A stretch of DNA of 50,512 bases. Origin: Spirochaetota bacterium. Lineage in GTDB: Bacteria; Spirochaetota; UBA4802; UBA5550. Location of the stretch: the NCBI GenBank assembly GCA_003246895.1, contig QKCL01000014.1:1-50512 (forward strand), in the 5' to 3' direction. Below the pieces are notes generated by a model. It was not told the DNA's origin, searched no databases, and saw only the letters and a list, made by a program, of their open reading frames with translations. Positions within the stretch are counted from its first letter, which is position 1. Each line of letters begins with the position of its first letter. The translations under genes and the position numbers were made by a program. Positions 49,722 to 50,512 of the stretch are shown in pieces.

Positions 49722-49841
49722 TTATTCCAGCACTTGCCCAGGTCTTCCGGGAAGCATTCCAGTAATATTATTATCGCCTGATACTGAAGATTTACATAGT
49801 TACTCTGACACACCCCTGACACACCCCAATTTCATAGATCA

Positions 49842-50303
49842 TTGTATAAACTTTAAGGTCAGGACCATAAACTTCATGGTCCGTTGTATAAATTTCGTGG
49901 TCTGAACCATAAACTTCACGGTCCGTTGTATAAATTTCGTGGTCTGAACCATAAACTTCACGGTCCGTTGTATAAATTTCATGCTATGGACCATAATCTT
50001 CACGGTCCGTTGTATAAATTTCATGCTATGGACCATAATCTTCACGGTCCGTTGTATAAATTTCATGGTCGGGACCATAAACATCATGATCCGTTGTATA
50101 AATTTCATGGTCGGGACCATCAACTTCATGGTCCAGAGCATTGATTTTATACTCCCGAGAGTAAATTTCATGGTCCGGAGTGTCATTTTAACACTCTGGA
50201 GTGTCGTTTTAACTCTCTGGAGTGTCGATTTGACCCAACGGAGCATCAATTTAACCAAACGGTGCGTCGATTTAACCCAACGGTACGTCGATTTAGGGAG
50301 TGT
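49842..50303. repeat. 21-bp tandem array, 22 units without a single indel
   Basis: Starting at TTGTATAAA, 22 consecutive 21-bp units are visible. In the first 14, two forms alternate (42-bp higher period), TTGTATAAATTTCATGGTCGG and GACCATAAACTTCATGGTCCG types. From unit 15 the units change to GAGTGTC-starting forms, then to GTGCGTC and GTACGTC forms. In several units bases 1-6 pair with bases 14-19 (GACCAT with ATGGTC in units 2 and 14; GAGTGT with ACACTC in unit 17). An additional, weaker copy may lie at 49821-49841. There are no spacers, so it is not a CRISPR. Confidence 0.9.
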
Positions 50304-50328
50304 CGAGAGTGTCAGATTGAGAGTGTCA

Positions 50329-50512
50329 GAGAGTGTCAGATTTTTTGTACCCAGGGGCATAATAATGCAAATAGCCTTCGATTCATATTAAATCTGCACT
50401 CTACCTTCAAAGTGAATTGCGAATTGATTCAAAGCAAGACCCCAATCCAGAATAGGCCTGGTCCATTTTCTGGAGGCCTTATCCAGAGCAAGATAGAGTA
50501 CTTTGTATATTG
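50329..50512 (-). mobile_element. Terminal part of an IS256-family insertion sequence
   Basis: The fragment of a transposase (next entry) and, beyond its stop codon, the sequence GAGAGTGTCAGATTTTTT at 50329-50346 are consistent with one end of an IS256/mutator-type element whose other end lies outside the window. The tip is inferred: I cannot see the second inverted repeat or the target duplication. GAGAGTGTCAGA also occurs at 50305 and 50319, just outside the proposed tip. Confidence 0.7.
50388..50512 (-). CDS. IS256-family (Mutator) transposase, C-terminal fragment
   Basis: The last 40 residues of a transposase read on the minus strand, entering from the right edge: KVLYLALDKASRKWTRPI, then LDWGLALNQFAIHFEGRVQI and TAA at 50388-50390. 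The pattern LYLA-x-x-x-ASKKW, WG-x-ALNQFAI-x-FE-x-R is the conserved C-terminus of IS256/Mutator DDE transposases. Catalytic residues lie outside the window. The stop is in the expected place; whether the element is intact is unknown. Confidence 0.85.
   Translation of the reverse strand, partial: IYKVLYLALDKASRKWTRPILDWGLALNQFAIHFEGRVQI

Follow-up and report, generated by a model that had tools for sequence, protein, structure and literature searches.

Among prokaryotes, non-coding satellite families have been described as rare, and the dispersed satellites reported from Leptospira interrogans and Methanocella conradii have units of 37 to 69 bp (PMC6749651). Insertion sequence (IS) elements, some of them belonging to the IS256 family, insert preferentially into the intergenic palindromic repeats known as REP/BIME (PMC1525189).

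The window analyzed here, the whole stretch of 50,512 nucleotides, constitutes the entire contig C3 of a 95-contig, 3.57-Mb genome and contains a tandem array with a unit of 21 bp. The features expected of a satellite family are present: related units are arranged head to tail, they occur at ≥13 loci, and they are intergenic and, by a codon-level test, non-coding. Tandem arrays with a similar step are familiar from plasmids, where iterons and partition sites are direct repeats of approximately 20 to 22 bp that lie two helical turns apart and are cooperatively bound by protein. Plasmid arrays of this kind are located at a single origin or centromere and adjoin a rep or par gene.

Structure of the array in the window

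The array extends from position 49842 to position 50295 and, when read as consecutive 21-mers, comprises 21 full units and one truncated unit with no indels; TRF detects the same array. An earlier note on this DNA had counted 22 indel-free units of exactly 21 bp. This holds for the 21 full units, but unit 22 retains only 13 bases and is followed by sequence resembling an IS end. The array and its edges contain the following features.

49782-49827, minus strand: relic of an IS256-type end (TACTGAAGATTTACATAGTTACTCTGACACACCCC) in which the terminal TGACACACCCC is duplicated (doubling at 49806-49827); end-pattern search
49828-49841, unstranded: incomplete unit at the left edge (AATTTCATAGATCA), truncated by the IS-end-like sequence on that side; sequence reading
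49839-50360, minus strand: open frame of 173 aa running through the array (heptads MKFIQRT/VKFMVQT), not considered a gene; frame analysis, no Pfam match
49842-50282, unstranded: 21 complete, phase-locked 21-bp units; 21-mer reading, TRF, and unit-profile scan, all spacings 21
49842-50135, unstranded: class A part, units 1 to 14, with TTGTATAAATTTCATGGTC and GACCATAAACTTCAYGGTC alternating as a 42-bp dimer repeat; TRF period 42, 91% match
50136-50282, unstranded: transition and class B part, units 15 to 21 (GAGCATTGATTTTATACTC, GAGAGTAAATTTCATGGTC, GAGTGTCATTTTAACACTC, and others); unit-profile scan
50283-50295, unstranded: truncated unit 22, 13 of 21 bases (GTACGTCGATTTA), cut at IS256-end-like sequence; 21-mer reading
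50296-50342, minus strand: IS256-type terminal sequence in tandem copies (GGGAGTGTC, GAGAGTGTCAGATT, GAGAGTGTCA, and GAGAGTGTCAGATTTTTTG) at the right array junction; sequence, and TRF at 50298-50342
50388-50510, minus strand: final 40 codons (C terminus) of a transposase of the IS256 family, truncated at the contig end; tblastn, 57 to 61% identity to annotated IS256 family transposases

Units of the window resemble the next but one (identity of unit i to i+2, 0.82) more than the adjacent unit (i to i+1, 0.65), and the left part is largely a 42-bp dimer. The order of unit types in the class B part is found again in the arrays on C53, C85e, C70, and C85s, and the complete form of the left-edge partial unit persists in C30 (ATGAATGAATTTCATAGATCA). 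In addition, the array on C88 is cut at the same point as unit 22 of the window, and a relic IS256-type end also lies to the left of the arrays on C53, C88, and C30.

A dispersed family of arrays

The repeat is real and more widespread than the earlier note recognized. Homologous intergenic arrays are located on C53, C85 (both ends), C30, C70, C57 (middle and end), C78, C40, C88, C63, C16, and C21. A scan of the genome with the unit profile yielded 14 array pieces, two of which probably belong to a single array that an IS256-family element has interrupted. These pieces contain 154 units, and every step between neighboring units is 21 bp.

Unit types follow a common order from left to right: class A (GAGCATAAGATTCATGGTC-like), GAGCATTGATTTTATACTC, GAGAGTAAATTTCATGGTC, class B (GAGTGTCGATTTAACACTC-like), and GTGCGTCGATTTAACCAAACG-like units. 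Because this order is shared, the arrays are best read, on sequence grounds, as copies of a single ancestral array that were amplified locally. Neighboring units are 84 to 95% identical in C30, C57m, C63, and C16, and identity reaches 95% in C30 and C57e. Several arrays run into contig ends, and the lengths seen there are not taken as true lengths. The genes next to the arrays are unrelated to one another, and the position of the arrays shows no preference for the starts or ends of genes.

The flanks contain repeats of their own. Beyond the right end of the arrays on C63 and C40 (L018:2670-2742), 21-bp units follow in the opposite orientation (GACGCATGGCTGCATCAAATC), so that the edge of these arrays forms a larger inverted repeat. 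Left flanks of type 2 (C57m, C78, C16, C85e, and C57e; L013:2531-2600 and L019:2391-2445) contain a repeat of 11 bp (CCAGCTGAAGG) together with a conserved stretch (GGGTGGTAGTCCTTTAAAATCCCGGG...), and the repeat of these flanks is a further dispersed repeat of the genome. A gene near the C53 array contains a 69-bp tandem repeat encoding MORN-like motifs (L009:5289-5487, G000:C53, where G000 is this genome).

DNA matches to the array were absent from 38 relatives, and the exact two-unit class A pattern had no match in a collection of species genomes from which this genome was probably left out. Plasmids, phages, and viral contigs also gave no match, and a phage or plasmid origin was rejected on that basis.

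Conservation of the 21-bp step

Pairwise alignments of the arrays contain 2,125 mismatches and eight gap openings, each of which involves whole 21-bp units or is mutually compensating. Alignments of the left flanks contain 216 mismatches and 26 gap openings, a small comparison in which the 11-bp repeats of type 2 flanks inflate the number of indels; type 1 flanks alone, which are without these repeats, have two gaps per 54 mismatches. Linking the distinct units in a minimum spanning tree requires about 235 substitutions and no indels, and at the ratio found in type 1 flanks, roughly nine indels would be expected by a rough estimate.

A length of 21 bp corresponds to two turns of B-DNA. Indels do occur in the flanks of the arrays. 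Their lack within the units, in non-coding DNA that has taken up about 235 substitutions, suggests that helical phase is important and points to a constraint on spacing. Copying of whole units could in part produce the same lack of indels. The unit length of homologous arrays clearly does not vary freely, as the earlier note would have expected of a spurious pattern, and the phase lock is stronger than that note claimed; its claim about pairing fails.

Palindrome and base pairing

By column consensus, 19 bp of the unit form a degenerate palindrome, GAGYRTNRAWTTNAYRSTC, centered on position 10, and a free 2-nt linker follows. Self-complementarity exceeds that of column-permuted controls both in the window (P = 0.003) and genome-wide, where none of 300 permutations of the 108 distinct units reached it. 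The dyads named in the earlier note are present in the window sequence, and those within units and those across unit junctions represent the same column pairs (1 to 6 with 14 to 19), the partner column being taken from the unit itself or from the one that follows it. Linker positions 20 and 21 account for 27 of the 99 scored changes, and positions 6, 12, 14, and 18 have 0 to 1.

Complete pairing (6/6) is restricted in the window to units 2, 14, and 17 (3 of 21), and six units form ≤2 of the six pairs. Genome-wide, only 6 of the 108 distinct units are completely paired, and pairs 3-17 and 4-16 are formed in 38% and 35% of units, respectively. Real partners pair more often than shuffled partners across all units (0.637 versus 0.585), but this excess arises only from the existence of two unit classes. 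Within classes, the values are 0.637 for real and 0.644 for shuffled partners (P = 0.80), and the P values obtained with and without G-U pairs are 0.80 and 0.73. The arms that had been described as replaced but still complementary therefore pair no better within classes than shuffled arms, an outcome that the earlier note had itself named as speaking against its proposal. The apparent replacement of both arms is a single difference between the two unit classes, counted repeatedly. A protein site with two tolerant half-sites, rather than a maintained stem, would show such a pattern.

Arrays in a second genome

A two-unit palindrome pattern, allowing ≤3 mismatches, was searched for in 393 genomes of the phylum, and the reversed pattern used as a control gave no match. 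Matches were found only in this genome and in G072, which belongs to another family. The G072 array contains about 12 units, has the same palindromic unit and the 42-bp alternation, and is flanked by crcB and an ABC transporter gene, both named from their sequences. It contains no open reading frame (ORF) of ≥60 codons and has no adjacent IS gene. Scored with the unit profile of this genome, it reached a phased score of 69.9, and the next best place in the 1.18 Mb sampled, half of the G072 genome, scored -25.5.

Tandem arrays were also sought in the G072 sample at lags of 9 to 45, and five of the six intergenic arrays in these 1.18 Mb had a lag of 21 or 42. Four further 21-bp arrays have unrelated units (TTTCCCCCACGTGGGGGAACG; TTGGTGCTACGAGAGGCAATA; GGGGAATGGCGCGTAGGAACG; GACGTGGATGGAAGACTCAGC) and are located as follows.

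L087:8458-8667, L102:103-249, L185:6699-6908, L106:1-105, and L198:12591-12689: further intergenic 21-bp arrays of G072

The pieces on L106 and L198, which lie at contig ends, have one unit in common (GACGTGGATGGAAGACTCAGC), and the 42-bp alternation is also found in L087, L102, and L185. No clear dyad was detected in the further G072 arrays (P = 0.09 to 0.25), and because their units are also unrelated, the shared feature may be the period and not the palindrome. This recurrence of the period without the sequence is the strangest observation of the analysis, and it rests on one genome. Tandem arrays were absent from 200 kb of each of two relatives from this genome's own family, and intergenic 21-bp periodicity outside discrete arrays is weak (z of about 2 in G072 and 0.8 in this genome).

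Possible functions of the arrays

The explanation tentatively favored here is that the arrays are a dispersed non-coding satellite and most likely a phased series of sites for a putative dimeric or self-assembling DNA-binding protein. The 19-bp palindrome, the free 2-nt linker, the two-turn spacing at all 14 pieces, and the G072 unit lend indirect support to the protein-binding array that the earlier note had listed among its candidates. Protein binding, a role in the cell, and a role of the 21-bp step are what we infer from the arrays. The putative protein would occupy one unit per two helical turns, with all copies on one face of the helix, so that an indel rotating one site against the next would be selected against. 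Base changes that leave the half-sites recognizable would be tolerated. Arrays would grow and shrink by unequal exchange in whole steps of 21 or 42 bp, and IS256-family insertions at palindromic junctions would be a consequence of the array rather than its origin. Freely diverging units, a fixed phase, and a palindrome found in two families may offer a handle on a DNA-binding protein or on phase-dependent amplification.

The main rival is a neutral or selfish minisatellite without function, in which a founder that was palindromic by chance was copied between genes, perhaps with the help of IS elements, and homogenized by slippage and unequal exchange. Neutral satellite families have been documented in L. 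interrogans (PMC6749651), and the high identity of neighboring units in C30, C57m, C63, and C16 is evidence of local homogenization. The unrelated genes on either side of the arrays and the lack of the array in 38 relatives are likewise in keeping with a neutral origin. We nevertheless regard it as less likely than the phased binding array: about 235 substitutions have accumulated with no indels, the palindromic unit is also found in the distant family represented by G072, and several unrelated arrays of G072 have an equal 21-bp period.

The G072 arrays raise the broader prospect of a phylum-wide class of intergenic arrays of exactly 21 bp, in which the helical period and not the sequence is conserved and which are made or bound by a common phase-reading machinery. 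Such a class is doubtful. If it is real, units unrelated across genomes and loci would have their step, and often also the 42-bp alternation, in common, and the machinery might be, for example, a chromosome-organizing protein that polymerizes on one face of DNA.

IS256-family elements at the arrays

Ends of IS256-family elements occur in the genome on C30, C85 (three), and C69, related relic ends occur on C3, C53, C88, and C30, and further IS256-family ends are visible in the sequence at C3 and C88. All except that on C69 are found at an array or no more than about 150 bp from one, with the provision that the relic-end search patterns were derived from array flanks and more divergent relics elsewhere would be missed. 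A search with Pfam PF00872 for the IS256 transposase gave no match, the element presumably being broken at contig ends, and IS256-family identity was settled by tblastn instead.

The sequences of C30 and of the start of C85 both break off within an array. Their phases at the break are complementary, they have the 8-mer GTCGTGAG in common, and when joined they give an uninterrupted array. They may represent one array split by an IS256-family element with an 8-bp direct repeat, but this reading is suggestive rather than proof because matching-phase breaks in any repeat share such an 8-mer (about 1 in 21 by chance). Furthermore, the IS ends in C30, C85e, and C88 all start at offset 3 of a unit. 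The clustering of IS256-family ends at arrays and the apparent splitting of one array partially support the recombination target that the earlier note had suggested, and the arrays would offer a natural case of a palindromic array used as a landing site by IS256-family elements. A tyrosine-recombinase-like gene directly adjoins the IS256-family insertion on C69 (L065:438-1526, G000:C69), and the adjoining half of that IS may be the copy located about 110 bp to the right of the C85 array.

An origin of the units in the terminal repeats of IS256 (GAGTGTCAGATT at the IS end, compared with GAGCATCAGATT in class A units), which would make the arrays transposase-binding sites or by-products of transposition, is improbable. 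IS256-type ends flank or interrupt the arrays on C3, C53, C88, C30, C85s, and C85e, insertion falls at offset 3 in C30, C85e, and C88, IS termini stand in tandem at 50296-50342, and one IS end fits the unit profile better than shuffled ends do (P = 0.017). However, the remaining IS ends fit weakly or not at all (P = 0.05 and 0.31), eight array pieces have no IS end within 260 bp of available sequence (several of these reach a contig end on one side), and the G072 array between crcB and the ABC transporter gene is without an IS.

Possible RNA and protein products

The earlier note had also suggested an RNA hairpin chain, in which the transcribed array would act as a row of hairpins with a 6-bp stem and a 7-nt loop, and this is now very improbable. 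Fold z scores of -5.8 and -8.5 appear to favor it, but strong scores are expected for any tandem palindromic repeat, and in the predicted minimum structure the units do not form a row of hairpins. Full pairing is missing in most units, the window has no Rfam match, and covariation is absent within classes whether G-U pairs are allowed or not, so that RNA structure was rejected.

Least probable of all is translation of the minus frame as a heptad repeat (MKFIQRT/MNLMLST, 21 bp being seven codons), for although 173 codons are open in the window and only two stops occur in about 1,080 codons of the 14 array pieces, a 21-bp repeat keeps its frame trivially, the synonymous fraction in the open frame is 0.23 against an expected 0.285 (99 scored changes), the largest synonymous excess falls in a plus frame with many stops, the open frames of the arrays have no start codon, flank, or Pfam domain in common, and the homologous G072 array has no ORF of ≥60 aa.

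Comparison with described systems

A CRISPR array was rejected, as the units are contiguous with 2-nt linkers and spacers are absent. A RAYT/REP system was also rejected: two Y1_Tnp genes are present, of which one (C88:34296, RAYT-like, L077:1474-2082) is about 31 kb from the C88 array and the other (C50:7979) is on a contig without a found array. Like REP/BIME elements, the arrays are intergenic palindromic repeats that serve as IS targets (ends at C30/C85s, C3, C88, and C85e). REPs, however, are separate hairpins, whereas the units described here form head-to-tail 21-bp arrays with no adjacent RAYT gene.

With plasmid iterons and partition arrays, compared from general knowledge and not by sequence, the arrays share direct repeats of approximately 20 to 22 bp and two-turn spacing, but they are located at ≥13 loci beside unrelated genes and match no plasmid or phage. 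The prokaryotic satellite families are similar in that homologous, non-coding tandem arrays occupy several intergenic places in one genome. Unlike those satellites, with their units of 37 to 69 bp, the arrays described here have a 21-bp palindromic unit, a strict phase lock, an ordered series of unit types, and IS256 elements at the arrays.
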